Of a DNA stretch of 64,000 nt, positions 47,350 to 64,000 are shown piece after piece. Source of the stretch: Rhodoferax sp. OV413 (GTDB lineage: Bacteria; Pseudomonadota; Gammaproteobacteria; Pseudomonadales; Pseudohongiellaceae); contig CALQJO020000008.1 of assembly GCA_943330915.2 (NCBI GenBank), positions 1-64,000 of the forward strand. Direction: 5' to 3'. The notes beneath the pieces are model-generated. The model saw only the letters and a list, made by a program, of their open reading frames with translations, was not told the origin of the DNA and made no database searches. Every line of letters starts with the position of its first letter. Position 1 is the stretch's first letter. Both the position numbers and the translations under genes were made by a program.

Positions 47350-47760
47350 ATGAACTTCATACGCAGCAACATCAAGTGGATCATGCTCGCCGGTGGCGTA
47401 CTGACCTGCACCATGGCGCTGGCCATCGTTGCGCCGCAACTGGCCCTGCAACGTACCTTTGGCGCAACGCTGGAAGGACCGTTGGCCGAGGTGGTTGTGC
47501 GCAGTTGGGGTATGTTGGTGACGCTGGTGGGTGCCATGCTGATTGTTGCCGCCTACCGTCCTGTGTATCGTCCGCTGGTCTTGCTGGTTGCTGCTGTGAG
47601 TAAAGCCGCGCTGTTGTTGCTGATTGCCCTTCCTGGCCGCGAGTTTGCTGCAACCGCCGCGCCGGTCATCGTGGCGGATGGCCTGATGGTGGTGTTGTTC
47701 AGCGCTTATCTGTTGGGTCTCAGCGCAGGTCAGCATCATGCGCCTTCCGGTTCCGACTGA
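47350..47760 (+). CDS. Small four-span membrane protein
   Basis: A 136-residue protein of unknown function with about four membrane spans (WIMLAGGVLTCTMALAIVAP, LVTLVGAMLIVAAY, LVLLVAAVSKAALLLLIAL, APVIVADGLMVVLFSAYLLG), similar in size and layout to small DUF4345-like proteins, though I cannot confirm that family. AGGA stands 8 nt before ATG 47350. Its last 41 nt overlap the convergent sulfatase gene. Confidence 0.7.
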   Translation: MNFIRSNIKWIMLAGGVLTCTMALAIVAPQLALQRTFGATLEGPLAEVVVRSWGMLVTLVGAMLIVAAYRPVYRPLVLLVAAVSKAALLLLIALPGREFAATAAPVIVADGLMVVLFSAYLLGLSAGQHHAPSGSD

Positions 47761-49549
47761 GCCAAGGCCGCAGCAAAAACCTGTAGATCAATCCTGACAG
47801 TAACAACACAGCCACCAACAAGCCCACAACCATGGCCACAAGGGTCGTGCCATATTCTTCAATAATGTTTTGCGTTGAGGCCTGCGCGATCATTTGTTGA
47901 CCCGAATATCCCGCAGGCATAGGTAACACGCCAACGTCAGCAGCGTAGGACGCGTAGTCCTGCAACATCTGTGCAACGCGCTCCGGCTGCTCTGCGCTGA
48001 GGTCGCGGGTTTCCCCCGGATCACGCACCACATTGTGCAAGCGCCACACACCATCGCCGTAGAAGTCGAGATTACGCACCAGTTTATAGTCACCTTTGAA
48101 CACCGCCGATTGTCCTGAGGCTTCCAGCGAAACGGCATCCTCTGGCCCATAGACAGCCGCCTGCCTGCCTTGCAACACATCAAACAGGCTGCGCCCGGTA
48201 AACGCCGGACCGCTCGTCAGTGCTGCAGTGCCTGTCAAATCCAGAAGCGTGGGTACCAGATCGGTCATAAAGCTGAAGGGGTGCAGCACACCTGCAGCTG
48301 GAATACCGGGGCCAGACATGATCAAAGGCACACGTGTCCCGCCTTCCGAGGCATGAAACTTGAACAATGACCCCGCAACACCGCCGGCCAGCGCCCATTC
48401 CGGGCCAATGGACGCGTAGGTGCCGCGCTCGCCCAAGGTGTCAGTGGCCAGTGAATAGCCTTCCAGGCGCAGCCACAGCCGGAAGCCGGGATCGACCGTT
48501 GGATGATTGTGTTCAGGCCCGTTATCTGAGAGCACCACAAACACGCTGTTGTCATAGACGCCGGTGGTCTTCAGGTGATCTATCAACCGGCCAACGTGGA
48601 AATCCATGGCTTCCAGCATCCCGGCGTTAATCTGCATACTGCGGATACTGCTCTCGCGCTCGGCATCCGAGATATCTTCCCATTGGCGCAGCACCGCAGG
48701 CACCGGGGCCAGCTCGGTATCCGCGGGGATCAACCCGCGCGCGACCGCGGCTGCATGACGACGCTGGCGTTGAACTTCCCAGCCTGCATCGTAAACACCG
48801 TTGTAACGCTCGATGTATTCCCTTGGCGCCTGCACGGGAATATGGATGGCCTGGAAACCAATGTAGGAGAAGAACGGTTGATCCGGTTCACGCTGGTCAA
48901 TGAATTCAATCATCTTGTCGACCAGAAACTCGGATGAATAGAAGTCGTCTGGCAAGGTGCCGCGCTGCCCGTCTTCAAACCAGTCGGCCTGGTCATATTG
49001 CGGCAGGTACGAGCGCTGCTCCCAATTATCCGCGCCCGAGGCGTCAAGTATAAAACTGCGATCAAACCCGCGGGCCACCGGCAGGCTCTCTGGCGAGTGT
49101 CCCAGATGCCACTTACCCGAGACAAAGCTGGCATAACCGGCTGCACGCAGATGCTCTGCCAGCGTGGGCACATCACTGGCCAATTCGCCCCGGTAAGAGG
49201 GGTGATCCGCCTGTTCTGGCGGGCGCAGGTGATCCAGTGTTGCGACACCCGCCCGGTGGCTGGGCACGCCGGTCATCAACATGGCACGCGAGGGCGCGCA
49301 GGTGGGAGTGGTATGGAAATTACTGAACATCACACCGGATGCCGCCAGACTGTCGATGTTGGGCGTCTTGATCTCACTGCCATATGCGCCCAGATCGGTG
49401 AAACCGGCATCATCAATCAGGATCACCACAACGTTGGGTTGAGCGGCCATCGCTGGCGCGGTCGCCAGCCACAGCGTCATCAGGCACAACAGCTTGGCTA
49501 CGCGGCTGAACATGCCTCCGTCCCCATAACTTGTCACATGAGCTGCCAT
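47720..49549 (-). CDS. Arylsulfatase-type sulfatase with C-terminal membrane anchor
   Basis: A 609-residue S1-family sulfatase that should hydrolyse a sulfate ester outside the cytoplasm. After the signal peptide come the metal-binding VVVILIDDAGF (Asp 46-47), the formylglycine motif CAPSR (Cys 84 to Arg 88), GKWHLGHS and SDNGPEH. Unusually a membrane span (LVAMVVGLLVAVLLLSGLIY) and basic tail close the protein, so it should be anchored in the inner membrane facing the periplasm. ATG 49549 has GGAGGA 5 nt upstream; the later ATG 49513 starts right at the signal peptide. The Cys-type motif fits the FGE gene just upstream. Confidence 0.92.
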   Translation of the reverse strand: MAAHVTSYGDGGMFSRVAKLLCLMTLWLATAPAMAAQPNVVVILIDDAGFTDLGAYGSEIKTPNIDSLAASGVMFSNFHTTPTCAPSRAMLMTGVPSHRAGVATLDHLRPPEQADHPSYRGELASDVPTLAEHLRAAGYASFVSGKWHLGHSPESLPVARGFDRSFILDASGADNWEQRSYLPQYDQADWFEDGQRGTLPDDFYSSEFLVDKMIEFIDQREPDQPFFSYIGFQAIHIPVQAPREYIERYNGVYDAGWEVQRQRRHAAAVARGLIPADTELAPVPAVLRQWEDISDAERESSIRSMQINAGMLEAMDFHVGRLIDHLKTTGVYDNSVFVVLSDNGPEHNHPTVDPGFRLWLRLEGYSLATDTLGERGTYASIGPEWALAGGVAGSLFKFHASEGGTRVPLIMSGPGIPAAGVLHPFSFMTDLVPTLLDLTGTAALTSGPAFTGRSLFDVLQGRQAAVYGPEDAVSLEASGQSAVFKGDYKLVRNLDFYGDGVWRLHNVVRDPGETRDLSAEQPERVAQMLQDYASYAADVGVLPMPAGYSGQQMIAQASTQNIIEEYGTTLVAMVVGLLVAVLLLSGLIYRFLLRPWLSRNRKAHDADLR

Positions 49550-49582
49550 CAGTTCCTCCGTCCCCATGCCATGAGTGACATG
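49515..49582 (-). repeat. Duplicated ribosome-site segment at the sulfatase start
   Basis: An imperfect repeat of 26-28 bp (49555-49582 and 49515-49540) shares a perfect 13-bp core, ATGGGGACGGAGG on the minus strand, at 40-bp spacing. Each copy brings a GGAGG ribosome site near an ATG: one suits ATG 49549, the other abuts ATG 49513. The spacing is not a multiple of three. Confidence 0.75.
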
Positions 49583-49592
49583 ATTTGTATGT

Positions 49593-50507
49593 TTAGGCAT
49601 CGCGGGCACACCTGAAACCGACGTGCATTAAGGAACTGTCGGGGGTGGAGTGGCTGCGTGAGGACACCCGGTAGCCGTGACAGACAGCCGCCTCGCATAA
49701 AAATGACCCGCCGCGCTGTACTTTTGTGCTGCCTTGCAACGGCGCATCGTCAGCACCTTTACGTCCGGCATAATTGCCGTGCCAGTCCGCCGTCCATTCC
49801 CAGACGTTGCCGGCCATGTCACTCAGCCCGGCCGGCGACAGTCCAAAGTGTCCCACTGGAGAAGTGGTTGCAAAACCGTCGTCGAGGGTATTGATGATGG
49901 GGAACGTACCGTTCCAGGTATTGGCCTGCCAGACGCGGGCCGGGAAGTCACCTTCCTTCAACAAGATGTCGCCAAAGGCATAACTGACATCACCGTCGTG
50001 ACCACTACGCGCGGCAAACTCCCACTCCACTTCGCTGGGCAGGCGCTTGTCGTGAGCACTGCAATACGCATGAGCATCATCCCAGGACACCTGGGTGACG
50101 GGGTGATCGGCGGGCGCCGGTTCGCCGTCGGGCCCCAAGGGAGAGCGCCAGTTCGCACCGGGCTGCAGAAACCAGCGCCCGGTACCAAACTGCATCACCG
50201 CGGCATCACCAAATTGTTCGGCAGTGGTGACATGCCCGGTTTGCTGAACAAACGCTGCAAATGCTGCGACGGTCACCGGCGTGCGATCCATCAGAAAGGC
50301 AGGCAACTGCACAGTAAACACCGGCCGCTCATCGTCCAAGCCCTGTTCAGAGCCAATGACCGATTGCCCGCCGGGGATCAACACCATATCAGCGGGCAGA
50401 TCATCGGCGGCCGCCGTTGCGACCAGCAGCATTGCCCCGACCAGTGCGCAGGACCTGATCATGAAGCGCCCAAGCGGACGAGGATTTGCAGCAAACAAGG
50501 CAGTCAC
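49593..50507 (-). CDS. Formylglycine-generating enzyme (sulfatase maturase), with signal peptide
   Basis: FGE oxidises the Cys in sulfatase CxPxR motifs to formylglycine using copper and oxygen. The FGE-sulfatase fold is seen in MVLIPGGQSVIGSE, HPVTQVSWDDAHAYCSAHDKRLPSEVEWEFAAR and GNVWEWTADW. The copper-binding cysteines lie in GGSFLCEAAVCHGYR (Cys 271 and Cys 276), followed by TPDSSLMHVGFRCA, as in true FGEs. GTG 50507 has GAGGA 7 nt upstream and leads into a secretion-like segment ending ATAAADD. It lies 43 nt before the sulfatase, so the two form a pair. Confidence 0.9.
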   Translation of the reverse strand: MTALFAANPRPLGRFMIRSCALVGAMLLVATAAADDLPADMVLIPGGQSVIGSEQGLDDERPVFTVQLPAFLMDRTPVTVAAFAAFVQQTGHVTTAEQFGDAAVMQFGTGRWFLQPGANWRSPLGPDGEPAPADHPVTQVSWDDAHAYCSAHDKRLPSEVEWEFAARSGHDGDVSYAFGDILLKEGDFPARVWQANTWNGTFPIINTLDDGFATTSPVGHFGLSPAGLSDMAGNVWEWTADWHGNYAGRKGADDAPLQGSTKVQRGGSFLCEAAVCHGYRVSSRSHSTPDSSLMHVGFRCARDA

Positions 50508-50608
50508 GGGCGTTTCCTCGCTATAGGTCACATGTTATTATCCAGAAGTATAATTACGGCACCCAGGATTGTCTAGCTCACCAAAAATCATAATAGGGAT
50601 AAGATCTT

Positions 50609-51916
50609 ATGAAGATAAAACCTTGGTTGAGGACCCGCGTCACTGCCCTGTTGACCAGCCGCGTTTACCGTCAACTGCGTCGCAGTACAGCGGCATTGAT
50701 CAGACGTATCAAAGGCCAAGCGCCCGTTGTGCATTATTTCCACCAGGTCGACGATCCTTATTCCGATCTGGCGGTACGCGCCCTGCCACACCTTGTTGGT
50801 CAGTATCCAATCACCCTGGTGCCGCACCTGGTTTCTGCTCCTGATGCCGGGGCAGCGCCGGAGCCTCAGCGCCTGGTGGAATGGTCATTGCGCGACGCTG
50901 CCGATCTCGCCCGCGCCCTGAATCTGCAGTCACCCCCCTGGCAGACGGCGCCCGATGCCAGCGCCGTTGTCCAGGCTCAGGCCTCACTGGCCGGGATCAC
51001 AGATCCTGTCAGGTTCGCCGACATCGTGGCTAAACTGCAGCCTGCAGAACCGGATCTGGCGGCCAGCGACATTCCGGCCAGCGACCTTGCAGACACTGCG
51101 CTTCAGGAGGGCAACGCGCTGCGCCAGGCACTGGGTCACTATCTGGGCGGCATGTTTTATTTTGAGGGGGAATGGTACTGGGGACTGGATCGGCTGCCAT
51201 ATCTGGAGCAACGCCTGCAAACCTTGTCACGCAACAACACTGTTGCGCCTTTTGTGAGCCGACTGGAATGCTCCGTCGACGAGACTCAAGCAGTTCCTGC
51301 GCACACGCAACAGCGCCCTGTACTGGATTTGTACTTCTCCTTTCGCAGCCCTTACAGCTGGATCGCACTGCCGAGAGTGTTTGCCTTGGCAAGGCGCTAC
51401 AACGCCCAGCTGAATCTGCGTTTTGTATTGCCCATGGTGATGCGCGGTCTGCCAATCCCGGAGTCCAAACGCCTTTACATTGTCAGCGACACCAAACGCG
51501 AAGCGGAGCGGGTGGGCCTGCCGTTTGGCTTGATTGCCGACCCGGTGGGAAAACCCACCGAACGCGGGCTGGCAGTGTTGCACCACGCCATTCAAGCTGG
51601 CAAAGGCGAGGCTTTTGCGCTGTCATTCATGCGCGGCGTGTTTGCTGAAGGCATCAGTGCGCGCAGTGACTCCGGGCTGCTGACGCTGTGCACTCGCGCG
51701 GGGATCACTGAGGCGCAGATGCAGGCAGCGCTGGCTGATGCCAGCTGGCGCTCTGTCGCTGAAGCCAATCGTGGCGAAATGTTTGCACTCGGCATCTGGG
51801 GTGTGCCGGCCTTCCGTGTCAATAAAGGCAGCGCACACTGGGGCCAGGACCGCCTGTGGCTGCTGGAGCAGCAACTCAGGCAAGCAACGATGCCAGCACC
51901 CGACGCTCCCCGCTGA
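50609..51916 (+). CDS. Tandem DsbA/HCCA-isomerase thioredoxin-fold protein
   Basis: A 435-residue protein with two similar halves. The N-terminal half (from VVHYFHQVDDPYSDLAVRALPHL) and C-terminal half (from VLDLYFSFRSPYSWIALPRVFALARRY) both match the start of the 2-hydroxychromene-2-carboxylate isomerase/kappa-GST branch of the DsbA family. The SPYS in the second half is the usual glutathione-binding Ser site; no CxxC is present. The ending FGIWGVPAF-like ALGIWGVPAFRVNKG is the cis-Pro loop. It probably binds glutathione; substrate unknown. The last 41 nt overlap the convergent TauD-type gene. Confidence 0.78.
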   Translation: MKIKPWLRTRVTALLTSRVYRQLRRSTAALIRRIKGQAPVVHYFHQVDDPYSDLAVRALPHLVGQYPITLVPHLVSAPDAGAAPEPQRLVEWSLRDAADLARALNLQSPPWQTAPDASAVVQAQASLAGITDPVRFADIVAKLQPAEPDLAASDIPASDLADTALQEGNALRQALGHYLGGMFYFEGEWYWGLDRLPYLEQRLQTLSRNNTVAPFVSRLECSVDETQAVPAHTQQRPVLDLYFSFRSPYSWIALPRVFALARRYNAQLNLRFVLPMVMRGLPIPESKRLYIVSDTKREAERVGLPFGLIADPVGKPTERGLAVLHHAIQAGKGEAFALSFMRGVFAEGISARSDSGLLTLCTRAGITEAQMQAALADASWRSVAEANRGEMFALGIWGVPAFRVNKGSAHWGQDRLWLLEQQLRQATMPAPDAPR

Positions 51917-52889
51917 AGGGGCGGCGTCCATGCATGACCAGTGAGTTATCCACCAGCGCCACGTCACCCGCTTGCCACTGCATATCAAAGGAGAGCTTCT
52001 CCGCCAGGTCAATCACGGTGGCCATGGCCTGCGGATCGATAACACTGCCATCACCAAAACAGATGGATTTCTGCGCCACATTGCGCTTGTCCTGCCAGCC
52101 CTGAAACGCCGCGATCAATTGGTTAAAGAACACCCGTCGACCATCCTCGAGTGTGCGCACCGCCGGCAACACCGGCGTGGTGACGCGCAGATTGTCTTCT
52201 GCCAACCACTGCCATTGATACCCCAGACTCTGCAGTTTTGCTTCTGCGGCTGCTTTGTCAGGCGCGTTTAAGGTACTGCGCCAACTGCGGCCCTGCCCGG
52301 ACTGCAGATCCTCCTGGTCGGGCATGGTATTGGTGTATCTGACGCCTTTGGTCTCACAGGCGCTCACAAAATCAGGCATCAGCGTTTCGATCTGTGTCAG
52401 CAATACATCAGAGCGGCACAACGGAGTGGCACCACCGACTGCCGCCGGATGTTCACAAAAAAAGAACAAGGCAGACGGGTAAACGGGTGTCTGCGCCATT
52501 TCATGATGCAGATAGATCGCGATATTGGCAGGCGCTTCGTTGGCGGTAAACACCCGCTCCGTGCGATTACGCCTGACCGCATTGGATAAGGAATCGGTAT
52601 AGGTAAAATTTTTTAAACCAAACATCTGGATAAACGCATCAAAATCCATATCCGTTTTTAATGGAAATCCGCGAAACAGTATAGCCCCGTGCTCAGCCAG
52701 TTCAGACTGCAGGGATTGCCGGTGAGCGTGCACCCAATCCGACACGGCTTGTAAACCGCCGGCAGGTTCTGACTGCAGGGCATACACCAGCGGGAAAGCC
52801 TGGGGGTGAAATTGCTGATGGTTTGCAGGCACCGCTGCGACCGCCAGAGCAGCCTGATTGCTTGTTGTACTCACACTCACCTCAGTCAT
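51876..52889 (-). CDS. TauD/TfdA-family (SyrP-like) Fe(II)/2-oxoglutarate dioxygenase
   Basis: A 337-residue cytosolic oxygenase that should hydroxylate an organic substrate with 2-oxoglutarate and O2. The first Fe ligands are His 128-x-Glu 130 in YLHHEMAQTP (the HxE form seen in SyrP and clavaminate-synthase-like relatives), the distal His is in DNSLVMHGRRPF and the 2OG-binding Arg in GERRVLASL. GDVALVDNSLVMHGRRPFSG is typical of SyrP-like proteins. ATG 52889 overlaps the aldo/keto reductase stop by 8 nt, so it is the last gene of the operon from 57460. Taurine is not implied. Confidence 0.85.
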   Translation of the reverse strand: MTEVSVSTTSNQAALAVAAVPANHQQFHPQAFPLVYALQSEPAGGLQAVSDWVHAHRQSLQSELAEHGAILFRGFPLKTDMDFDAFIQMFGLKNFTYTDSLSNAVRRNRTERVFTANEAPANIAIYLHHEMAQTPVYPSALFFFCEHPAAVGGATPLCRSDVLLTQIETLMPDFVSACETKGVRYTNTMPDQEDLQSGQGRSWRSTLNAPDKAAAEAKLQSLGYQWQWLAEDNLRVTTPVLPAVRTLEDGRRVFFNQLIAAFQGWQDKRNVAQKSICFGDGSVIDPQAMATVIDLAEKLSFDMQWQAGDVALVDNSLVMHGRRPFSGERRVLASLLA

Positions 52890-53856
52890 AAATGGGATAA
52901 AACTTACCAAAGGCCAACTCGCAGAAAGCACCGGGATCATTAAAGCGGCGGTTCTGATTCAACGCGGAAATAGCCGCCATCTCGTCATCGCTGAGCGTGA
53001 AGTCAAACACCAAGAGGTTCTCAGCCAGACGCTCGACGCGAGAGGTTTTAGGAATCACTGAGGTGCCTCGCTGAACACCCCAGCGCAATACTACCTGCGC
53101 CGGCGTGCGCTGCACACGACGGGCAATGTCTTTCACCACCGCTTGTTGTAATACCGAATCCTGATCACTGGCCATGGACAACTCAACGTAGGAGCCGGCG
53201 CCCAGCGGTGAAAACGCCGTCACGGCGATGTCGTAATGCTGCGCCAGCCGGATCAGACGCTGCTGCGTCAGATACGGATGCGATTCAATCTGCAACATCG
53301 CCGGTTTTATGCGGGCATAGGCCATCAGATCGTGCAGCAGTGCGCTGTTGTAGTTACACACACCAATATTGCGAACCAGGCCTGCCGGCACCAGTGCTTC
53401 CATGGCGTGCCAGGTATCAGCCAGCGGCACCGGGTCAATCGTCATTTCGGGGCGCTCTGCCCTGGGATCAAAAATCCACTCCGGCGGATAACGCTCGGCC
53501 ATGGGCACGTACTTCAGGGAGATCGGAAAATGTATAAGGTACAGATCCAGATAATCGAGCCCCAGATCAGACAAGGATTTTTCGCAGGCTTCACGCACAT
53601 GTTGCGGATGATGAAAGGTGTTCCATAACTTTGAAGTAATCCATAGATCCTGACGCGTACACAGGCCCTGCGCCAGCGCGCGGCGGATACCCTCGCCGGC
53701 CTGTGTTTCATTGCCGTAATCCGCGGCACTGTCCAGATGACGGTAACCGGCTTTGATCGCATTAAACACCATCTCAGCGGTATCATCTTTGGCGATTTTC
53801 CAGAGACCAAACCCGACGGCCGGCATCTGCTGCTGTTTAACATTAATGCTGGTCAT
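52882..53856 (-). CDS. Aldo/keto reductase
   Basis: A 324-residue NADPH-dependent AKR with the full catalytic tetrad Asp 42, Tyr 47, Lys 76 and His 109 (LDSAADYGNE, WITSKLW, LYLIHFP) and a C-terminal phosphate-binding IPKTSRVERL. It would interconvert a carbonyl and alcohol, most likely on a sugar or polyol derivative. ATG 53856 overlaps the Gfo/Idh gene stop as ATGA, and its own stop overlaps the dioxygenase start, so it is tightly coupled to both. Confidence 0.92.
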   Translation of the reverse strand: MTSINVKQQQMPAVGFGLWKIAKDDTAEMVFNAIKAGYRHLDSAADYGNETQAGEGIRRALAQGLCTRQDLWITSKLWNTFHHPQHVREACEKSLSDLGLDYLDLYLIHFPISLKYVPMAERYPPEWIFDPRAERPEMTIDPVPLADTWHAMEALVPAGLVRNIGVCNYNSALLHDLMAYARIKPAMLQIESHPYLTQQRLIRLAQHYDIAVTAFSPLGAGSYVELSMASDQDSVLQQAVVKDIARRVQRTPAQVVLRWGVQRGTSVIPKTSRVERLAENLLVFDFTLSDDEMAAISALNQNRRFNDPGAFCELAFGKFYPIYD

Positions 53857-55076
53857 ACCTTCCCGCCTTCCAGTACATGTTGCAGTTGCTGCGCGCGCAA
53901 AAAACTGTCGATGCTGACGACGTGTCCGCTGCGCAGCGATTCCTGAGCCGCACAGGCCACGATCATCGACCATAAGCCCTGTTGAACCGTCGCGCAGTCT
54001 ACCTGTTTGCCATCCAGCTGATCCATCAGCGCGATGTGCTCATAATAGGTAGCGCCATGATGCCCACTTTGTTCAATCAGCTTCGGATAGGACAATTGCG
54101 TGCTGCGCGATGCGCCATTCTCACCAATCTCCACCTTGATTGATGTCTGAGTAGGCACCTGCGCATGAAAATCAAAACGCTCGTGGGTCACCACTCTGCC
54201 CTGGTCACCAACAACAATCAGCTCTTCAGAAAAGTCCGCACAGAACATGTTCAGTGTAAAGCTGGCTTTGATGCCATTAGCGTAGTCAATACACACAAAC
54301 GCATGATCATCTATGTCTGAAGCCACGCCGTCTTTTTTGAAATCCAGAAAGTTCACCGCACGCCCGCCGGTGGCATACACACGCACGGCCCGCGAGTCTG
54401 CCATCAGATTCATCAGATCAAAATAGTGACAACATTTTTCGACCAGGGTACCGCCGGTATTGCAATTAAACTTGTTCCATTGCCCGACTTTATCGAGAAA
54501 GGGCGGGCGGTATTCACTCATGCTGATGGTATGGATCTGCCCCAGACTACCGCGGGCTTTCACCTCATGAAAGGCTTCCTGATACTGGGCTTTGTAGCGG
54601 TACTGCAGACCAATCTGCACAAAGGCACTGTGGTTTTCTGCGGCGTCCAGCAAGGCAACGGCGTCCGCCAATGTTGTTGCCATGGGCTTTTCCAGAAAAA
54701 TCGGCTTGCCGCTGGCCAGTGCAGTTTTTAACACCTCGAGATGCGTAAAGTTGGGTGTGCAGATCATCAGCACATCAGCGTCCGCGTCATTACAGGCGGA
54801 CTCCAGGTCGGCATACCGGCGCAACACATCGCTGGAAATCGCGCGGTAGGCAGCCTCTGCGGCATCCATACTGTGCACCTGCTGATCATAAATCCCGAGC
54901 ACACGGGCGCGGCCCAGCAATGCCGCCACTCGCATATGTTCCTGCCCCATGGTGCCGGTGCCAATCACGACGAGGTTGTAGCGGGGTGGTTCCTGCTGAT
55001 ACAGATAACGATCGGCGTCAGTGATGTGCCGTTGATTGACCGAATTTTCAAAAAATCGCAAACGTGCTTTTGTCAT
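53853..55076 (-). CDS. Gfo/Idh/MocA-family dehydrogenase
   Basis: An NAD(P)-dependent dehydrogenase of sugars or cyclitols, 407 residues. Rossmann GTGTMG at 39-44, catalytic EKP at 129-131 and the C-terminal substrate domain with KFNCNTGGTLVEKCCHYFDLMNLM (the motif with the family His) are visible. About 35 residues precede the Rossmann fold. ATG 55076 comes 4 nt after the symporter stop. Substrate inferred to be what the symporter brings in. Confidence 0.92.
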   Translation of the reverse strand: MTKARLRFFENSVNQRHITDADRYLYQQEPPRYNLVVIGTGTMGQEHMRVAALLGRARVLGIYDQQVHSMDAAEAAYRAISSDVLRRYADLESACNDADADVLMICTPNFTHLEVLKTALASGKPIFLEKPMATTLADAVALLDAAENHSAFVQIGLQYRYKAQYQEAFHEVKARGSLGQIHTISMSEYRPPFLDKVGQWNKFNCNTGGTLVEKCCHYFDLMNLMADSRAVRVYATGGRAVNFLDFKKDGVASDIDDHAFVCIDYANGIKASFTLNMFCADFSEELIVVGDQGRVVTHERFDFHAQVPTQTSIKVEIGENGASRSTQLSYPKLIEQSGHHGATYYEHIALMDQLDGKQVDCATVQQGLWSMIVACAAQESLRSGHVVSIDSFLRAQQLQHVLEGGKV

Positions 55077-55080
55077 TTTT

Positions 55081-56781
55081 TTACCGCATAAACGCAGGAA
55101 AACCCTGCTTGACCCAGACCACAACATTAACGGCCAGCAGCGACAGCATCAACGGCCAGAACGCCGAACTCAGGCCGCCCACCAAACCGACAGGCGAGAA
55201 CAGCAAGTACAAGGCCACCACACAGGACATGAGCGTAATCGCGCACGGAACGGCATAACGCCAAGGCGTCAGGTCCACACCCTGTACTGGCTGGTACGAC
55301 CAGTTTTCGCTGCGTGGCTGCAACCTGCCAAACAGCAGCATAATCGCCACTTCAATCACAAACAATATGGCGTACACATGCAGGAAATGCAGCGTCACAA
55401 CATCATCAAACACAAAGCGCAGCAGGCCGTAAGCAATCACATGGAAAACAATCGCGACCTTGGCGCCCACGGCCGGCACGCGGGTGGTAAACAGTCCAAC
55501 CAGCACAACGGCAATCACCGGAATGTTGTAAAAGCCGGTAAACATACGAATCAGTTGCCAGAGTCCTTCCGGCGCGTATTGCAGCAAGGGCGCGACCACA
55601 AACGAAAACAAGGCAATGACTACGCTGGCGATTTTGGCGACACGTATCAGTGTTTTGTCATCCACCGGTTGCTTTTTCAGCGGCGCATAGACATCCAGGC
55701 AAAACAAAGTCGCGGCACTGTTCAACAGGGAGTTAAAAGAACTGAACACGGCGCCCAGCAAGACCGCCAGAAAAAACCCCGAGGCATAACCCGGCAACAC
55801 ATCACGCACCAATCGCGGGTAGGCCTGATCAATCGGGCTCAACCCGGGGCCGTACAAGTGAAACGCGATGATGCCGGGGATCATCATCATAAATGGCACC
55901 ATGACCTTGAAGAATCCGGTAAACAACACACCTTTCTGACCCTCGGCCAGGTTTCTGGCAGCCAGCGTGCGCTGTATCACATATTGATTGGTGCACCAGT
56001 AAAACAGATTGGCGAGAATCATACCGGTGAACAAGGTGCCAAACGGAGTTGGGTCAGCCGGCCCACCAATCGCGTTCAGCTTCTGTGTGTCGGTGCTGGT
56101 GATGATGGCCAGACCGCTGCTCACGCTGCCATCGCCCAGCAGTGACAGTCCCAGCACCGGCACGGTCACACCAATCACCAACAGGCCGATGCCATTGAGG
56201 GTATCGGAAATAGCCACAGCCTTTAAACCACCAAACACCGCGTAAACACTGCCAATCAAACCAATCGCGACGATAGTCATCCACAGCGCCTGACTGTCAT
56301 TGACCCCAAGCAAACCGGGCACATCAAACAATTGCAGCACCGCGATAGAGCCGGCGTACAACACGGATGGAATGGTCACCAGCCCATATCCGACCATAAA
56401 CAGCACTACCGTCAGGCGCCGCACGCCATCATCAAAGCGCTTGTTGAGGAACTCGGGCAAGGTGCTGAACGCCCCTGCCAGATAACGCGGCAGAAAGATA
56501 AACGCCATGCAGATGGTGGCAAACGCCGCAGTCACTTCCCAGGCCATGCTGCTCAGATTAAAGCCATAAGCCGAACCATTGAGTCCTATCAATTGTTCAG
56601 CAGACAGGTTGGTCAGCAGCAGCGAGCCCGCGATAAACGTTGCACCCAGACCGCGACCCGCGAGAAAGTAGCCATCCTGGGTGCTGACGTCTCCGCGGGT
56701 TTTGCGGTAGGAGATCCAGGCCACCAGTGCCATAAAAAAAGCACAGCTGAGCAGCGTGATGGTTAGGTCAGCGGTTTCCAC
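55081..56781 (-). CDS. Sodium/solute symporter, SGLT type
   Basis: A 566-residue inner-membrane transporter of the SSS family with about 14 spans. The region TNLSAEQLIGLNGSAYGFNLSSMAWEVTAA matches vSGLT, including the Glu-Gln of SAEQ and the Glu of the following helix that bind galactose there, so a sugar, inositol or similar polyol is the likely cargo. The N-terminal YFLAGRGLG motif is also typical. Its start overlaps the DUF2306 gene by 14 nt, and Gfo/Idh follows 4 nt after it. Confidence 0.92.
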   Translation of the reverse strand: METADLTITLLSCAFFMALVAWISYRKTRGDVSTQDGYFLAGRGLGATFIAGSLLLTNLSAEQLIGLNGSAYGFNLSSMAWEVTAAFATICMAFIFLPRYLAGAFSTLPEFLNKRFDDGVRRLTVVLFMVGYGLVTIPSVLYAGSIAVLQLFDVPGLLGVNDSQALWMTIVAIGLIGSVYAVFGGLKAVAISDTLNGIGLLVIGVTVPVLGLSLLGDGSVSSGLAIITSTDTQKLNAIGGPADPTPFGTLFTGMILANLFYWCTNQYVIQRTLAARNLAEGQKGVLFTGFFKVMVPFMMMIPGIIAFHLYGPGLSPIDQAYPRLVRDVLPGYASGFFLAVLLGAVFSSFNSLLNSAATLFCLDVYAPLKKQPVDDKTLIRVAKIASVVIALFSFVVAPLLQYAPEGLWQLIRMFTGFYNIPVIAVVLVGLFTTRVPAVGAKVAIVFHVIAYGLLRFVFDDVVTLHFLHVYAILFVIEVAIMLLFGRLQPRSENWSYQPVQGVDLTPWRYAVPCAITLMSCVVALYLLFSPVGLVGGLSSAFWPLMLSLLAVNVVVWVKQGFPAFMR

Positions 56782-57460
56782 GAGCCACCGGTCTGGTCAG
56801 ACGAATCCACGTCTCTGCGGCAGTCAGCGTCGCCGGCATTGAACTGACAGTCGCAATATTCCAGGCGAGTGTGAAATCAAGTCCGGCCAACTGCCCCCAA
56901 TCAAGAAACAGACGTAAGGTAGAAATTGACAGGCCGACCGCAAAACCGCGGATCATAAACTCTCTGTGTAATCTGACATCACGCACACGAATGTATCCAA
57001 AGGCGCGATACAAAAAGTACAGCATCAGAACACTGCTGAACAGTGAAACCCACTGGTTGAGTGTCCAGCCCCAGATCGGTAATACAAAACCCATATAGGA
57101 CGCCCCCAGCGCAACCAGCACGGCGCTAATAAGATAAAGGTAGCCGCTGCCACGGTGCAGTCTGGGAAAGCGTTTGCGCAATGAACTGATGAATTGCACC
57201 GGCCCGAGAATCATGAATAAAAAGCCGGGGATAACGTGAGCCAGCGTTAATGTCGGCATCTCGACGTATCGGGCGTTAAAGGGATGCGCCGCGGCCTGCG
57301 GATGCAAGTCTCCCGATAGCGAAAGACTGATAAAACCAGCACGGGTTACCGCATCATTGAGTGCGTCGTAGACCAGATACACAATAAACGCCCACCCGAT
57401 CAGGCCGATGACCTGCAGCGTGGGCGCGGACAACACACCGTTTCGTGGAACATTTATCAT
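56768..57460 (-). CDS. DUF2306 membrane protein
   Basis: A 230-residue integral membrane protein with about six spans and the DUF2306 pattern: LAHVIPGFLFMILGPVQFISSLRKRFPRLHRGSGYLYLI and a later DVRLHREFMIRGFA. Two conserved His residues (LAH, LHR) could bind haem or metal, but the function of the family is not known. It is the first gene of the five-gene operon and overlaps the symporter start by 14 nt. Confidence 0.82.
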   Translation of the reverse strand: MINVPRNGVLSAPTLQVIGLIGWAFIVYLVYDALNDAVTRAGFISLSLSGDLHPQAAAHPFNARYVEMPTLTLAHVIPGFLFMILGPVQFISSLRKRFPRLHRGSGYLYLISAVLVALGASYMGFVLPIWGWTLNQWVSLFSSVLMLYFLYRAFGYIRVRDVRLHREFMIRGFAVGLSISTLRLFLDWGQLAGLDFTLAWNIATVSSMPATLTAAETWIRLTRPVARGNR

Positions 57461-57565
57461 CTTGTTATGACTCCAGCCATGTTGGTAAATCCGCGCTGTG
57501 TGCAGCTACTCTAGTTGGATTGCCATTTTGCGGTCAACCGTGGGCTTGGTATTTGCTGACTGGGT

Positions 57566-57628: not shown

Positions 57629-59137
57629 ATGGATTCACTACTGGCCATCGCGCCATCAGCGCTGGCGCTGATTCTTGCCTTCACCACCCGACGCGTGATT
57701 TTGTCCCTGCTGAGCGCCGTGGTGCTTGGATACGCCATTCTGATGAACTACCACCCGCTGGACACCGCAGTTGCGGTATTCAATCAAGGCATTTTCCAGC
57801 AACTCGAAGGCTCTAACGCCCAGATCATCATTGTCATCACCATCATTTCCGGGTTCATCTACCTGCTTGAATCGTCCAATACCATGCGCGCGTTTTCCGG
57901 TTTGCTGGGTACGCATGTGACCTCACCACTCAAAATCAAACTCAGCATGCTGTTCAGCGGGTTGGTGATCTTTTTTACCGACTCCGGCAACTCGCTGATT
58001 CTTGGCCCGGTTTACCGACCTGTTTACGACAAACTGAAAATTTGCCGCGAAAAACTTGCCTACATTGTGGATTCCACCTCATCGCCGGTGTGTGTGCTGA
58101 TCCCCATCATCAGCTGGGGCGCTTACACCATGGGGCTGATGGAAAGTTCCTTTGCTGCAGAGGGTATTGTCAAAGACGGGTTCACCGCATTCAGGGAAGT
58201 CTGGTTTTATATGATTTACCCCTTGTTAACCTTGATTGGCGTGGCCTTTGTAGCGATTTTCAACGTCTGGCTGGGACGCATGAAACAGGTGCAGCAACGC
58301 TTTCTGGCCGGCACCCACACCTACGAGGATTCGCAGACAACACTGCCTGAGCTGAGTCCTGCGCTCAAACAGCACGGTGCAAAAATTGTGGCTGTGGCAC
58401 TTGGCACTTTGTTTGTATCGATGATTTCACTGTTCACCTATTTTGTATTGCAGCAGGGCATGTTGACCGGCCCCGTCATCCGCATATCCCTCGCGCTCTC
58501 CTACACAACAGCCACCATTGCCACCATTGTGATCCTGCATCGTTTGCAGATATTTGATTTCAACAGCAGCTCAAAAGCGTTTTTTAACGGCATGGGGCGC
58601 ATCATGCCCATTCTGTGCATTCTGATTCTGGCGTGGACACTCAGTGACGTGATGGCTGAACTGGAAACGGGCGCCGCTATTGCCAGACTGCTCAACGCGG
58701 TGAACTTTCCGGTGTGGATGCTGGCCAGCATGATTTTTGTGATCGGCGCTGCCTTGTCATTGGCAACCGGATCGTCATGGGGAACGTTTGCGCTGGTGAT
58801 CCCGGTGGCCGTGGCGGTGGCACTGGATGCGCCCGTTATTGTGTGTATCGGTGCGGCCATCAGTGGCGGCTTGTTTGGTGATCACGCCTCGCCCATCTCA
58901 GACACCACGGTGTTGTCGTCCATGTCCTGTGGGGTCAACCACATGTCGCATGTGGAAACACAATTTCCGTACGCCATCTTCACAGCCGTGTTGACGTTCT
59001 TTGGCTTTATGCTCGCGTCGCTGTTGCTGCAGGCTGGAGAGTCACCAGCGTGGATACCGGTGACAGTCATGGCAGTGATTGCCGGCGTTGCGTATTATTT
59101 TGCCTCTCGTTCCAAGCTGGGAAATCTGAACTTATGA
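57629..59137 (+). CDS. NhaC-family Na+/H+ antiporter-type transporter
   Basis: A 502-residue inner-membrane protein with about 12 spans. It carries FTDSGNSLILGPVYRPVYDK and the paired C-terminal TGSSWGTFALVIPVAVAVALDAP and GGLFGDHASPISDTTVLSSMS, the NhaC-family ion-binding signature. Members carry Na+/H+, malate/lactate or, in the LysW branch, probably lysine. AAGGA stands 7 nt before the ATG. Its stop overlaps the start of the saccharopine dehydrogenase gene (ATGA), which hints at an amino-acid rather than a pure ion role. Confidence 0.9.
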   Translation: MDSLLAIAPSALALILAFTTRRVILSLLSAVVLGYAILMNYHPLDTAVAVFNQGIFQQLEGSNAQIIIVITIISGFIYLLESSNTMRAFSGLLGTHVTSPLKIKLSMLFSGLVIFFTDSGNSLILGPVYRPVYDKLKICREKLAYIVDSTSSPVCVLIPIISWGAYTMGLMESSFAAEGIVKDGFTAFREVWFYMIYPLLTLIGVAFVAIFNVWLGRMKQVQQRFLAGTHTYEDSQTTLPELSPALKQHGAKIVAVALGTLFVSMISLFTYFVLQQGMLTGPVIRISLALSYTTATIATIVILHRLQIFDFNSSSKAFFNGMGRIMPILCILILAWTLSDVMAELETGAAIARLLNAVNFPVWMLASMIFVIGAALSLATGSSWGTFALVIPVAVAVALDAPVIVCIGAAISGGLFGDHASPISDTTVLSSMSCGVNHMSHVETQFPYAIFTAVLTFFGFMLASLLLQAGESPAWIPVTVMAVIAGVAYYFASRSKLGNLNL

Positions 59138-60213
59138 AAACATTGTGGTTACGCCGTGAAGACAAAACTGGTGAATGGCGGGTTGCGCTTACCCCTGATG
59201 GTGTCAGGGAACTGGTTCAGAACGGCGTCAAGGTTGTGGTCGAAACCTCAATCCAGCGCGTCTTCAGCGACACCGAGTATCTGGCTGCCGGCGCACAGCT
59301 GAGCGACCTGCATTGGTCACAGGCGCCCGCGGATGCCATCGTTCTTGGCTTGAAGGAATTGGCTGACGCGGATGATGCCATCAGCCATACACAGATCTAT
59401 TTTTCGCATACCTTCAAAGGTCAGACCGGCGCCGATGCCGTGCTGCAGCGATATGCCAGTGGCGGTGGAGAGCTGTTTGATCTGGAGTTTTTACAGGACG
59501 ATCAGGGCCGACGTATTGCCGCCTTCGGATACTGGGCTGGTTTTGTGGGCGCCGCACTGGGCATGTTGGGTCTGGCTCATTATCAGCAGACTGACAACGC
59601 CTTTCCGGCCGCTCACCGCTTTGACAGCCAACAGCAGTTGGTGGACACCGTTGTCACTGCCTTGGGCAAACAGTCACTGCGCGTCATGGTGATGGGTGCG
59701 CTGGGACGCTGTGGTACGGGTGCCACCGACCTGTTGCGCCAGCTCGGACCGCAGATTGATATCAGTCGCTGGGACATTGCAGAGTTCAACGCCGTAGACA
59801 AACCCATACGCGCGATCATAGAACACGATGTATTTGTGAATTGTGTCTACCTGCGCGAGCCCATCCGGCCGATGATTGACACGGCGCTGCTGGACAGCAA
59901 TCAACGTCTTAAAATCATCAGCGATGTCAGTTGTGATCCTAACAACCCGAACAACCCTATCGCCGTTTATGATGCCACTACCAGCCTGGACGCTCCGTTC
60001 CGTCGCGCAAATGGCAGTACACACTGGCCGGTGTACGTGCAGGCGATTGATCATCTGCCCACCTTGTTGCCGCGCGAGGCATCGCAGGAATTTGCCGCCG
60101 CCTTGTTGCCGCATCTGCTGGAGTTTTTGACCAGCGCTCAATTGCCACCGGTCTGGCGCAATGCCCGGTCACGTTTTATTGAAGCCCAACAGCGGTATGG
60201 CCTGATCACCTGA
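59134..60213 (+). CDS. Saccharopine dehydrogenase, L-lysine-forming (Lys1) type
   Basis: A 359-residue NAD-dependent enzyme of the AlaDH/PNT-like Lys1 family, which interconverts saccharopine with lysine and 2-oxoglutarate. Catalytic Lys 74 (LGLKEL) and His 92 (YFSHTFKGQ) align with yeast Lys77 and His96; RREDKTGEWRVALTPDGVRELV is the family N-terminus, and VMGALGRCGTGATDLL is the dinucleotide-binding loop. ATG 59134 overlaps the transporter stop. No LYS9-type partner is present here, so direction (lysine breakdown or synthesis) is open. Confidence 0.85.
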   Translation: MKTLWLRREDKTGEWRVALTPDGVRELVQNGVKVVVETSIQRVFSDTEYLAAGAQLSDLHWSQAPADAIVLGLKELADADDAISHTQIYFSHTFKGQTGADAVLQRYASGGGELFDLEFLQDDQGRRIAAFGYWAGFVGAALGMLGLAHYQQTDNAFPAAHRFDSQQQLVDTVVTALGKQSLRVMVMGALGRCGTGATDLLRQLGPQIDISRWDIAEFNAVDKPIRAIIEHDVFVNCVYLREPIRPMIDTALLDSNQRLKIISDVSCDPNNPNNPIAVYDATTSLDAPFRRANGSTHWPVYVQAIDHLPTLLPREASQEFAAALLPHLLEFLTSAQLPPVWRNARSRFIEAQQRYGLIT

Positions 60214-60370: not shown

Positions 60371-61411
60371 CTATCCAAGCGCCTTAAGCAGTGGCGCTAC
60401 TTTCAGCGCGTTGATATCGGGACTGCCCGTGACAAAACAACAGATTTTTAGCTGCCGATGCCACTGTGCAATAAGATCGGTCAACGCCGCGTCTCCCAAT
60501 CGCGCGGCATGAAGAAAAGGCACGGCCGCCGACACCATGTGAGCCCCCATCCTCAGCGCCTTGGCGACATCGAGGCCTGAGCGTATGCCTCCGGAGGCGA
60601 TGACAAACAGCTTGTCACTCAGTTGAGGATCCGCGTCAAATGCAACCAGCGCTTCAGCCAGCGTGATACCGAAATTATGAAAAGGTGTGCCCAGTTTCAT
60701 GGCCTCTGGCGAACCCAGCCGTTGTGTTTCGATGGCGGCCCAACTGGTGCCTCCGGCGCCGGCGACATCGATATAACTAACACCGATCTCCAGGAGCGCA
60801 CGCGCCGTTGTTGGCCCGATGCCATGCCCTACTTCTTTAATGATGACCGGCACATGACTTTCGCGAACCAGTTGGGCGATCGCTGGTTTGATACCCGTCC
60901 ACCGGGTGTCTCCGTCAGGCTGAAGCGCCTCCTGCAGCGGGTTCAAGTGCACAATCAATGCATCTGCATCAGCGATCTCAATACACGTCAGCGCACCTTT
61001 CAAGCCGCCAGGTTCGCGAAGTTGAGCACCACCAATATTGGCCAGAATTGGAATGCCCGGCGCAAATGAGCGTAACTCAAACGCGGCGCGCTGCGAGGGG
61101 TTCTCCAGCGCAATACGCATGGATCCCAGCGCCAACGCGATGCCGCAGGCTTGTGCAGCCACAGCCAGTTGTTCGTTGAGTTTTTGTGACTCGGCAGTGC
61201 CGCCGCTCATTGATGCGATCATCAACGGCAGCGACATGGTTTTTCCTAAAAATCCCACTGAGGTATCAATCTGATCAAGATCGAGTTCAGGCAATGCTAC
61301 CGGTTCGAAGCGGATAGCCTCCAGGCCATTCGACATGGCCATCTGCACCTCTGGCGATCCCGCTATAGCGAGGTGCTCGCGCTTGCGATCGCTTATCTGG
61401 TGCGACGTCAT
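60371..61411 (-). CDS. fni: Type 2 isopentenyl-diphosphate isomerase
   Basis: An FMN- and NADPH-dependent isomerase turning IPP into DMAPP, the starter for carotenoids. The 346-residue protein has the N-terminal DRKREHL, ASMSGGTAESQKLN, HLNPLQEALQPDGDTRW, KEVGHGIGP, GAGGTSWAAIE and the C-terminal FMN phosphate site ASGGIRSGLDVAKAL. ATG 61411 overlaps the blh stop (ATGA). It is the last gene of the cluster, supplying the precursor pool. Confidence 0.95.
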   Translation of the reverse strand: MTSHQISDRKREHLAIAGSPEVQMAMSNGLEAIRFEPVALPELDLDQIDTSVGFLGKTMSLPLMIASMSGGTAESQKLNEQLAVAAQACGIALALGSMRIALENPSQRAAFELRSFAPGIPILANIGGAQLREPGGLKGALTCIEIADADALIVHLNPLQEALQPDGDTRWTGIKPAIAQLVRESHVPVIIKEVGHGIGPTTARALLEIGVSYIDVAGAGGTSWAAIETQRLGSPEAMKLGTPFHNFGITLAEALVAFDADPQLSDKLFVIASGGIRSGLDVAKALRMGAHMVSAAVPFLHAARLGDAALTDLIAQWHRQLKICCFVTGSPDINALKVAPLLKALG

Positions 61412-62211
61412 GGTTTTATCCGCCATTGTTGTTGCCGCCATGGCAGGTAAAAATCAATCAGAATCATATGGGGTACGGTCACCGCAAAAAGGCCTACAAA
61501 AAAAATGGTTATCACTGCCGGCTCCATCTCGATTTGCCGGAAAAACAGCAGGTAGAGTGCAGCAGCGATACTCAGCGTGAGAATGGTGAATACAACCATG
61601 TCCCTTTTGGCTTGTGGCTCATCGGTCGAGTCGCTTAACACTTTCAACATATGCCTTCTCGCATGCCACGCGCAGAAGTAAAGACAGATAGCCCACAGGG
61701 CAGGCAGCAAGATGACGATCAACAGCCCAGCCAGCCACTCGACACAAACACGGCGGTGCCCGTGCCAAAGCTCAACAGACAAGTGCGCGATGCTGATCAC
61801 AATCCAAAGCGCCATCGCCATGTTTAGAACGCTGTGGACAACCGCCGTATTTGTCTGCAGATACGCAAAGAGTATCTCAGTCGTTTGCCACTGAAGAGTG
61901 GGCAAGGCAACCACCCAAAGACCGCCTCGCGACAATATGGCTAACAGCGGCCTCATGTATGTTTGCTGTGACACATCAGAGCGCCCAAAATGCACCGTAC
62001 TGATCGCCAGAAAGCTGAGCATGGATGCGGTCGGGTACAGAAGCCAGGCGCCGATACTGATCGCGGCCAACAACACATAACCCGCAAACAGTGCGATGGA
62101 ATCCCGCACACTTCTGCTGACCGACTTGATGACATATCCGTCCAGTGCGCCGTGAGGAACGCCCAGCAGCGTCATCAGCACCAACGGGATGATCAAGGTG
62201 ATCAGTTCCAT
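61408..62211 (-). CDS. blh: Beta-carotene 15,15'-dioxygenase (Brp/Blh family)
   Basis: A membrane enzyme that splits beta-carotene into two retinal molecules. The 267-residue protein has about eight spans and the family iron-ligand histidines: GVPHGALD (His 20), STVHFGRSD, CAWHARRH and VPHMIL. ATG 62211 is chosen because it starts about 17 residues before GVPHGALD as in relatives and overlaps crtY by 10 nt; ATG 62223 is also possible. Retinal synthesis implies a rhodopsin, which is not in the window. Confidence 0.93.
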   Translation of the reverse strand: MELITLIIPLVLMTLLGVPHGALDGYVIKSVSRSVRDSIALFAGYVLLAAISIGAWLLYPTASMLSFLAISTVHFGRSDVSQQTYMRPLLAILSRGGLWVVALPTLQWQTTEILFAYLQTNTAVVHSVLNMAMALWIVISIAHLSVELWHGHRRVCVEWLAGLLIVILLPALWAICLYFCAWHARRHMLKVLSDSTDEPQAKRDMVVFTILTLSIAAALYLLFFRQIEMEPAVITIFFVGLFAVTVPHMILIDFYLPWRQQQWRIKP

Positions 62212-63344: not shown

Positions 63345-64000
63345 AGGGCATCCCGGCAAGATGAACATGGAGCCTATGGTCGTGTGCTTTGTCTGGCGTC
63401 AGTCTGGCCCTAAACGGCAACGAGCAGAGGACCGGTAGCGCGGACAGTGTCATCAGCAATTTCTGTTGTTTTGAGATAACTGTTCGTCCTCGCCACCACT
63501 GGCAACCGTGTTGTCGGAGCTGGCGGCCGATAGCACGGTACAAGATGGCGGCAAGATAGATCGCGATCCTGCTGCCGCGTGGCAGGTAAGTCAGACCTGC
63601 GATCCCCGACTCATAAAATCGCTCTGCGCGCTCCAGTTGCAAATCTATCGCCCTGGCAACCTGGTCGCGGGTGTCAACAGAGGCACACGCGAGTGATTCA
63701 ACAGGGATATCGACCGGAAGGTATCGTCTGCCGATGCCCGCATCCTCTAACACATCTCTCGATATGTTTGTTAACTGCATAGCAATCCCGAGATCAATTG
63801 CGAAAGGCAGTGCTTCGACATCGCGGACCCCAAGCACAGAGCTCATCATGATGCCCACGGTACCTGCGACGCGGTAACAATACCTGTCCAGCGCCTGCTG
63901 ATCGGTGAGTTCTACCAGGGAGGTATCCTGCATCATTCCATCAATCAAGCTCATCACCGCCGCAGTGTCGATCCCATGCGCGGCAATCAAGTGCCGGAAC
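63331..64000 (-). CDS. crtB: Phytoene synthase CrtB (5' partial)
   Basis: CrtB condenses two geranylgeranyl-PP into phytoene, the first committed carotenoid step. The 222 codons seen are open to the window edge; the visible part includes SLIDGMMQD, DRYCYRVAGTVG and the second Asp-rich region LGIAMQLTNISRDVLEDAGIGRRYLP. About 80-90 N-terminal residues with the first Asp-rich motif lie outside. It is the first visible gene of a run crtB-crtY-blh-fni in which every junction overlaps. Confidence 0.94.
   Translation of the reverse strand, partial: FRHLIAAHGIDTAAVMSLIDGMMQDTSLVELTDQQALDRYCYRVAGTVGIMMSSVLGVRDVEALPFAIDLGIAMQLTNISRDVLEDAGIGRRYLPVDIPVESLACASVDTRDQVARAIDLQLERAERFYESGIAGLTYLPRGSRIAIYLAAILYRAIGRQLRQHGCQWWRGRTVISKQQKLLMTLSALPVLCSLPFRARLTPDKAHDHRLHVHLAGMPYADT

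Follow-up and report, generated by a model that had tools for sequence, protein, structure and literature searches.

A conserved operon in a Pseudohongiellaceae genome with a probable role in uptake and oxygenolytic breakdown of sulfoquinovose

Plant and algal membranes contain a sulfur-bearing sugar, sulfoquinovose (SQ, 6-deoxy-6-sulfoglucose), whose turnover forms part of the sulfur cycle. SqoD of Marinobacterium aestuarii, the characterised SQ dioxygenase, was reportedly described by Ye et al. in 2023. The production of SQ has been estimated at 10 billion tons per year (PMC10755693), and an oxygenolytic route for its breakdown, termed sulfo-SDO or sulfo-ASDO, is already published (PMC12890257, PMC13372026, PMC10755693), which overtakes the view of an earlier note on the DNA studied here that its 2-oxoglutarate (2OG) dioxygenase points to an undescribed pathway. 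In that route, an Fe/2OG dioxygenase and an NAD(P)H-dependent oxidoreductase are proposed to convert SQ into sulfite and 6-dehydroglucose, and the latter into glucose (PMC12890257, PMC13372026). We analysed a stretch of 64,000 nt (the window) from contig CALQJO020000008.1 of assembly GCA_943330915.2, which carries an Fe/2OG dioxygenase gene and an oxidoreductase gene beside a gene of GH188 sulfoquinovosidase (SQase) type. We consider it likely that the operon formed by these genes and a symporter gene (Table 1) serves the uptake and oxygenolytic breakdown, of sulfo-SDO type, of SQ and its glycosides, for example sulfoquinovosyl glycerol.

A PDB search with the Gfo/Idh-fold protein of the operon returned 8qc2 (214 bits), 8zn9 (205 bits; identity not established) and 8qc3 (202 bits), followed by the next match at 65 bits. 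8QC2 and 8QC3 are FlSqgA and ArSqgA, NAD+-dependent SQases of family GH188 (Kaur et al. 2023, PMC10755693), and the window protein has in common with GH188 SqgA both the Gfo/Idh fold and the residues named there as contacts of SQ and its sulfonate. In ArSqgA, SQ is held by Tyr136, His193, Lys107, Glu189 and His321, and the sulfonate by Arg166, Lys172 and the backbone of Leu170 (PMC10755693). We mapped the ArSqgA numbering with a chain offset of 13; Glu163 of the paper is a Val in the ArSqgA sequence so numbered, and the neighbouring Glu164 was scored instead. All eight contact residues are retained in the window protein in the pairwise alignment, as is Glu164. All nine signature residues occur together in every one of the 42 cluster Gfos (the window copy counted) and in all 14 Gfos of further genomes. 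The signature is present in none of six planctomycete Gfos that lie near related dioxygenases, a contrast set showing that the test is able to fail. The window protein is 34% identical to ArSqgA (30–36% for the window-type group as a whole), and its sulfonate loop reads EYRPPFLDK, compared with EHRFPFLHK in ArSqgA. The best NCBIfam match is the inositol dehydrogenase IolG, at 111 bits against a cut-off of 355; given this low score and the complete GH188 residues, we rejected an identity as inositol 2-dehydrogenase, and the substrate is most likely SQ rather than a polyol or cyclitol. The protein is best read as a candidate GH188 NAD+-dependent SQase and not as a polyol dehydrogenase. Of the Gfo/Idh dehydrogenase proposed in the earlier note, the family assignment thus stands and the role in polyol or cyclitol oxidation falls, and the polyol-like substrate of that note is superseded by SQ, to which the GH188 residues point.

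We scanned genome_contigs for relatives of the dioxygenase, with one genome per species for 84,980 species. The scan gave 95 relatives. We analysed the 80 best of them as loci, and 57 of these loci have at least 5 kb of flank on both sides (full-flank). The aldo/keto reductase (AKR) gene is a same-strand neighbour of the dioxygenase gene in 60 of the 80 loci (45 of the 57 full-flank loci); 41 loci (33) hold a GH188-type Gfo, and 44 (35) an SSS symporter at least 55% identical to that of the window. These counts depend on the picking of open reading frames (ORFs), which overlooked the Gfo of locus L061 and the cut-off Gfo of L019, both visible by tblastn. The order symporter, Gfo, AKR, dioxygenase is retained in many other Gammaproteobacteria; in sphingomonad loci the symporter gene is convergent to the dioxygenase gene. 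A dioxygenase gene beside genes for an SQase and an oxidoreductase, the arrangement by which SqoD and sulfo-SDO loci are recognised, was found in the window, and its parts recur in the full-flank loci at the counts just given (a GH188-type Gfo in 33 of 57, an adjacent AKR in 45 of 57). The four genes form a block that is conserved across Gammaproteobacteria, and their arrangement is not due to chance. Scattering of the genes in relatives, which the earlier note named as the observation that would speak against its coupled operon for uptake and oxidation of a sugar-like compound, was not seen; the genes travel together in related loci, and with the symporter's sugar contacts described below this part of the proposal looks right. 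The fifth gene of the unit is a different matter. DUF2306 occurs in none of the 80 related loci, some of which end before the region beyond the symporter, and we rejected it as a pathway member, so that its place in the five-gene module suggested earlier is lost. In the same-genus loci L017 and L018, which lack DUF2306, the symporter gene directly follows a divergent NhaC gene.

The dioxygenase and the Gfo also co-occur when whole genomes are compared. A close TauD and a close Gfo are found in the same 12 of 56 nearer relatives (the operons of G004 and G005 are cut by contig ends); G051 and G052 carry TauDs of 30–31% identity only. For 390 genomes of the order, we distinguished clade A, the window-type dioxygenases, from clade B, a second, SqoD-like clade that accompanies SqgA in other members of the order. 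The identity cut-offs were set by hand (A, at least 45%; B, 33–40%), with G580 (partial Gfo match) excluded from the Gfo list and G313 (dioxygenase match in two pieces) taken as clade A. Clade A dioxygenase and window-type Gfo occur together in 21 genomes, on separate contigs in two of them (G506 and G531), the dioxygenase alone in 5 and the Gfo alone in 3. Clade B dioxygenase and SqgA-type Gfo occur together in 14 genomes, the dioxygenase alone in none and the Gfo alone in 4, and no genome mixes the A and B sets. Fisher values calculated from these counts take no account of common descent. A class-wide draw yielded 2 positives among 229 genomes, the window's own included, and the 10 records from a plasmid collection held TauDs of at most 32% identity.

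Both clades show the features expected of a 2OG dioxygenase. The residues of the HxE...H metal site, H145, E147 and H337, are invariant in clades A and B, and R346, by its position after the metal site likely the 2OG-binding Arg, is found in 79 of 80 clade A and 10 of 10 clade B sequences. N134, A149 and Q150 are common to both clades and to the plant protein described next; among six outgroup rows, N134 and Q150 occur in none and A149 in one. The structure model of the window dioxygenase (mean pLDDT 85.8) has its closest fold in 1y0z (Z 39.4 over 319 residues, 36% identity), which is Arabidopsis At3g21360, a plant protein whose entry title gives no reaction; the next rows, E. coli TauD among them, lie at about Z 20. 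One split of the tree, at 100/99, separates the 81 clade A rows (the window among them), together with a single outgroup row, O_L014, which falls within clade A on a very long branch, from all others. Clade B, with 10 rows, is likewise a single group at 100/99. The plant protein joins clade B at 97/49 only. The tree was rooted at its midpoint with long-branched outgroup rows, and is therefore silent on whether clades A and B are sisters. Clade A is split from the TauD rows linked to nonribosomal peptide synthetases (NRPS; L178 and L180), and from clade B as well, in this tree, whose rows do not include SyrP itself; the SyrP-like hydroxylase that had been suggested for the window found no support in this comparison.

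The partners of the two clades connect the window to described enzymes. In 16 alphaproteobacterial loci, a clade A dioxygenase lies beside Gfos that are 43–50% identical to ArSqgA and resemble it more than they resemble the window Gfo. This links the dioxygenase clade of the window with enzymes related to an SQase of demonstrated activity. Clade B occurs with SqgA-type Gfos 45–52% identical to ArSqgA. GntR, SqgA and dioxygenase genes stand in a row in L158–L160 and SqgA adjoins the dioxygenase in L164, whereas the two are about 2.5–8 kb apart in L161–L163, about 36 kb apart in G515 and on different contigs in G438. L158 further holds a divergent AKR and a DctP-type binding protein, and a DctP-type (TRAP) transporter is also found in L161. 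The best PDB matches of the L158 AKR are 7bbz and 7bc1 (342 bits), which we take to be SmoB, although no paper confirming this was found. With the L158 AKR, that of L159 shares 96% identity and that of L161 61%. The clade B dioxygenases are 51–72% identical to PDB 9yut, a TauD/TfdA structure set of unconfirmed identity, which was absent from the fold matches (library up to April 2026) and, as 9YUT or 9YUU, from the papers searched. Clade B loci look like sulfo-SDO clusters, and we infer a link to the cluster of Marinomonas ushuaiensis, which stands last in the legend of a cluster figure whose order suggests sulfo-SDO (Kaur et al., PMC10755693).

The reductase and the importer of the window are of other kinds. 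The best PDB matches of the window AKR are aldose and xylose reductases (310 bits), the clade B AKRs are only 21–26% identical to it (weak alignments), and it is of aldose-reductase type and not of the SquF/SmoB type that we looked for. With its AKR from another branch, the operon is filed as a variant and not as the described sulfo-SDO set. The symporter belongs to NF007790 (PRK10484 solute:sodium symporter; 725 bits against a cut-off of 401) and is 33% identical to vSGLT and 42% to E. coli YidK, all being members of the SSS family. We compared 45 symporter rows, the window counted twice, at vSGLT positions that we take to be its galactose contacts: every row retains E88, N260, Y263 and K294, and 44 retain Q69, whereas S91 is replaced by Ala and Q428 by Arg in all 45. 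The vSGLT-like sugar contacts named in the earlier note are thus mostly present. E. coli YidK has Ser at the S91 position and Lys, instead of Arg, at the Q428 position. An anionic sugar would be in keeping with such a basic residue at the sugar-binding site. A literature search on sulfoquinovose and symporter, judged by title, found no paper on an SSS symporter for SQ. In E. coli K-12, yidK (L182:8402-10117), with its Lys at the Q428 position, lies beside the gene for the putative sulfatase YidJ, hinting that YidK, too, transports an anionic sugar.

All five genes lie on the minus strand and their products score above the cut-offs of their own Pfam families (TauD, Aldo_ket_red, GFO_IDH_MocA, SSF and DUF2306). 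With starts that fit the homologues, DUF2306 and the symporter overlap by 14 nt, the symporter and the Gfo are separated by 4 nt, and the Gfo/AKR and AKR/dioxygenase junctions overlap by 4 and 8 nt, confirming the tight coupling described previously for these genes. Promoter-like sites in the stretch number 7, compared with 4.8 +/- 2.7 in shuffles, so that the match upstream of DUF2306 is no evidence by itself. The closest named contigs for the dioxygenase are a gammaproteobacterial metagenome-assembled genome (MAG; 95% identity), strain LSUCC0112, Pseudohongiella MAGs and Pseudohongiella sp. O18; the window is from a gammaproteobacterium of Pseudohongiella type.

Table 1 Features of the operon in the window, with proposed functions
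Feature	Coordinates	Strand	Remarks
DUF2306 membrane protein, first gene of the unit	56768..57460	-	PF10067; not conserved
SSS-family sodium:solute symporter, YidK/vSGLT type; proposed sulfoquinovoside/sulfoquinovose importer	55081..56781	-	PF00474, NF007790
Gfo/Idh-fold protein; proposed GH188 NAD+-dependent sulfoquinovosidase	53853..55076	-	ORF opens at 55127, likely start 55076; GFO_IDH_MocA; SqgA-type PDB matches and SQ-contact residues
Aldo/keto reductase, aldose/xylose-reductase branch; proposed 6-dehydroglucose reductase	52882..53856	-	ORF opens at 53973, likely start 53856; PF00248
TauD/TfdA-family Fe(II)/2-oxoglutarate dioxygenase; proposed to act on sulfoquinovose, clade distinct from the SqoD-like one	51876..52889	-	ORF opens at 52940, likely start 52889; PF02668
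Sigma-70-like promoter match upstream of DUF2306, weak (9/12)	57508..57537	-	Motif scan

The sequences show directly which genes are present, that their order is conserved, that they co-occur, and that their products carry the GH188 signature and the metal-site residues; we infer every substrate and reaction of the following scheme. The SSS symporter would import the anionic sugar together with sodium, with the Arg at the position of vSGLT Gln428 as a candidate sulfonate contact. The GH188 Gfo/Idh-fold enzyme with its bound NAD+ would transiently oxidise C3 and eliminate the aglycone, giving free SQ. The TauD-type enzyme, with Fe(II), O2 and 2OG, would hydroxylate C6, upon which sulfite would leave and 6-dehydroglucose form, and the AKR would reduce the C6 aldehyde with NAD(P)H to glucose. 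Glucose would then be phosphorylated by a glucokinase encoded elsewhere, and sulfite would be oxidised or exported.

Genes for the fate of sulfite and glucose are found only outside the operon. The window's own genome encodes three TauE-type proteins, one PF03404 protein and one glucokinase. In control genomes, TauE is found in 14 of 14, a PF03404 protein in 2 of 14 and a glucokinase in 4 of 14, so that TauE is no special sign; these genes are compatible with sulfite release and glucose use and prove nothing. A cluster of PF03601 proteins, which we take to be putative sulfate exporters, occurs near the dioxygenase in 12 of the 80 loci (one representative checked), SulP permeases lie beside the operon in L173–L175, and a PAPS reductase is found in L021.

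Several observations weigh against an SQ dioxygenase pathway in the window. The window dioxygenase is only 37–40% identical to clade B, its loop 117–123 reads SLSNAVR throughout clade A and differs in clade B, and the tree, taken as unrooted, does not join the two clades as sisters, since clade B's side of the split also holds the plant protein and all outgroup rows but O_L014. The window dioxygenase is at most a putative orthologue of the characterised SqoD, and the literature consulted yielded no assay of any enzyme from clade A. The AKR is missing in 12 of the 57 full-flank loci, 15 of the 57 were scored as lacking GH188 and GH31 alike (in error for L061, whose Gfo is seen by tblastn), and the window-type Gfo without the dioxygenase in 3 of the 390 genomes also breaks the pattern. 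The operon contains no sulfite gene and the genome no PF03601 protein. In 13 of the 80 loci (Alteromonadales- and Arenicella-type), finally, the Gfo is replaced by a GH31 protein, which never shares a locus with a GH188-type Gfo and often has GntR-regulator, TonB-receptor and PF03601 genes for company. The sulfonate contacts of the SQase YihQ are R301, W304 and Y508; these GH31 proteins (for example L081:3674-5839) lack W304 and Y508 in 13 of 13 loci and R301 in 12 of 13 (a gapped stretch). Their nearest solved relatives in Alteromonadales-type loci are an alpha-glucosidase and YicI, and a YihQ-type SQase identity was rejected on the sulfonate residues. They are possibly a new SQase type or act on a different substrate.

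The separate clade, the different loop and a tree that does not join the two clades as sisters make another sulfosugar or another step possible. The operon might degrade a different 6-sulfo-sugar or SQ conjugate, such as sulfofucose or a glycoside directly, by the same chemistry with a different specificity; the clade-specific SLSNAVR loop, the window-type Gfos forming their own group at 30–36% identity to ArSqgA, and the GH31 proteins without most YihQ sulfonate residues would agree with this. We nevertheless regard it as improbable, given that the SQ-contacting residues of ArSqgA, including the O4 contact Glu189, are kept and that the same dioxygenase clade accompanies SqgA-like Gfos in Alphaproteobacteria. 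A broader proposal, which we think unlikely although with an appreciable chance of being correct, is that the dioxygenase clade, the aldose-reductase-type AKR and the Arg-bearing SSS importer make up a second, separately assembled oxygenolytic sulfosugar pathway in Gammaproteobacteria (Alteromonadales included), Alphaproteobacteria and Planctomycetes. In this proposal the substrate may be a sulfosugar or conjugate of which no breakdown is known so far, and a new GH31 sulfoglycosidase would take over from GH188 in Alteromonadales-type loci.

A pathway that takes up and oxidises some undescribed polyol or cyclitol by means of an inositol-dehydrogenase-like enzyme, the AKR and a SyrP-like dioxygenase would account for IolG as best NCBIfam match and for the aldose-reductase branch of the AKR, but the match lies far under its cut-off, the GH188 signature is complete, the dioxygenase stands apart from the NRPS-linked rows, and relatives carry sulfur-transport genes nearby; on the signature and the IolG score we rejected such a pathway, which is very improbable. 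Scarcely probable at all is a dioxygenase that does not desulfonate but hydroxylates another part of the sulfoquinovoside or a linked compound, the sugar entering a different sulfoglycolytic route elsewhere in the genome. The three genomes with a window-type Gfo alone and the missing clade A assay leave room for this, but the adjoining reductase suits an aldehyde product, and the 10 neighbouring window proteins, to which the search was confined, include no isomerase, kinase or aldolase of sulfoglycolysis. Oxygenolytic breakdown of SQ thus remains our preferred reading.

Some related loci are of separate interest. L169 and L170 (G287 and G541), and also G574, hold a window-type GH188 candidate without the dioxygenase. 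In L169, the candidate lies near a DctP binding protein, a LysR regulator and a 2OG-FeII_Oxy protein and, judged by eye, TauE-type exporter-like and HpcH/HpaI aldolase-like proteins; another SQ route may employ the same glycosidase in such loci. The planctomycete loci L036, L039, L042, L048, L069, L088, L090 and L093 carry clade A dioxygenases, some with AKRs, MFS transporters and Gfo/Idh proteins; the Gfos of planctomycete cluster c12 lack the GH188 signature, and those of c30 and c51 lie outside the signature test. The Arabidopsis protein At3g21360 (1y0z) is 39–45% identical to clade B, and GH188 genes have been reported in plants (PMC10755693); plants might have an oxygenolytic SQ route of their own.

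A type I sulfatase gene (CAPSR motif, by eye) with a neighbour bearing a formylglycine-generating enzyme (FGE) domain lies at 47720-50531 of the window, with a plus-strand DsbA gene between the pair and the operon. An FGE gene near the dioxygenase was found only in the window and in 4 of the 80 loci (L016–L019, same-genus type), with close sulfatase matches in L017–L019; FGE is missing beside the operon in L020 and L021, two further loci of the same genus, and weak sulfatase matches (25–32%) in L038, L056, L088, L090 and L093 were read as unrelated. The suggestion that this pair releases the substrate is not supported. On the other side, at 57629-60213 and divergent from the operon, an NhaC-type antiporter gene overlaps a gene for a protein with an AlaDH/PNT N-terminal domain, a pair retained in L017 and L018. 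Further on (60371-63990, by eye) lie genes for a type 2 isopentenyl diphosphate isomerase, a Blh/Brp-type dioxygenase and lycopene-cyclase-like and phytoene-synthase-like proteins, suggesting retinal synthesis for a rhodopsin.

If the preferred assignment is correct, a broad set of bacteria frees sulfite from SQ by a dioxygenase gene set that superficially resembles an inositol dehydrogenase, a xylose reductase and a taurine dioxygenase, and a sodium-coupled importer for a sulfonated sugar becomes available for testing. A literature search found no paper naming sulfoquinovose together with Pseudohongiella; such genomes may already be included in the counts of a survey from 2026 that applied an identity cut-off of 30% (PMC13372026). 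The sulfo-SMO pathway (SmoC/SmoB, SquD/SquF) leads to the same products, sulfite and 6-dehydroglucose and then glucose (PMC12890257, PMC13372026), but it uses a monooxygenase, whereas the window operon encodes a 2OG dioxygenase. Compared with the sulfo-SDO set, the window has a separate dioxygenase clade, and compared with the clade B loci of sulfo-SDO-like type, its AKR is of the aldose-reductase branch and not 7bbz-type, and its importer is an SSS symporter and not the DctP-type (TRAP) transporter of L158 and L161. What appears to be new here, on comparison of the encoded proteins, is therefore the separate dioxygenase clade, the other reductase branch and the other importer, while the proposed chemistry is that of the published route.

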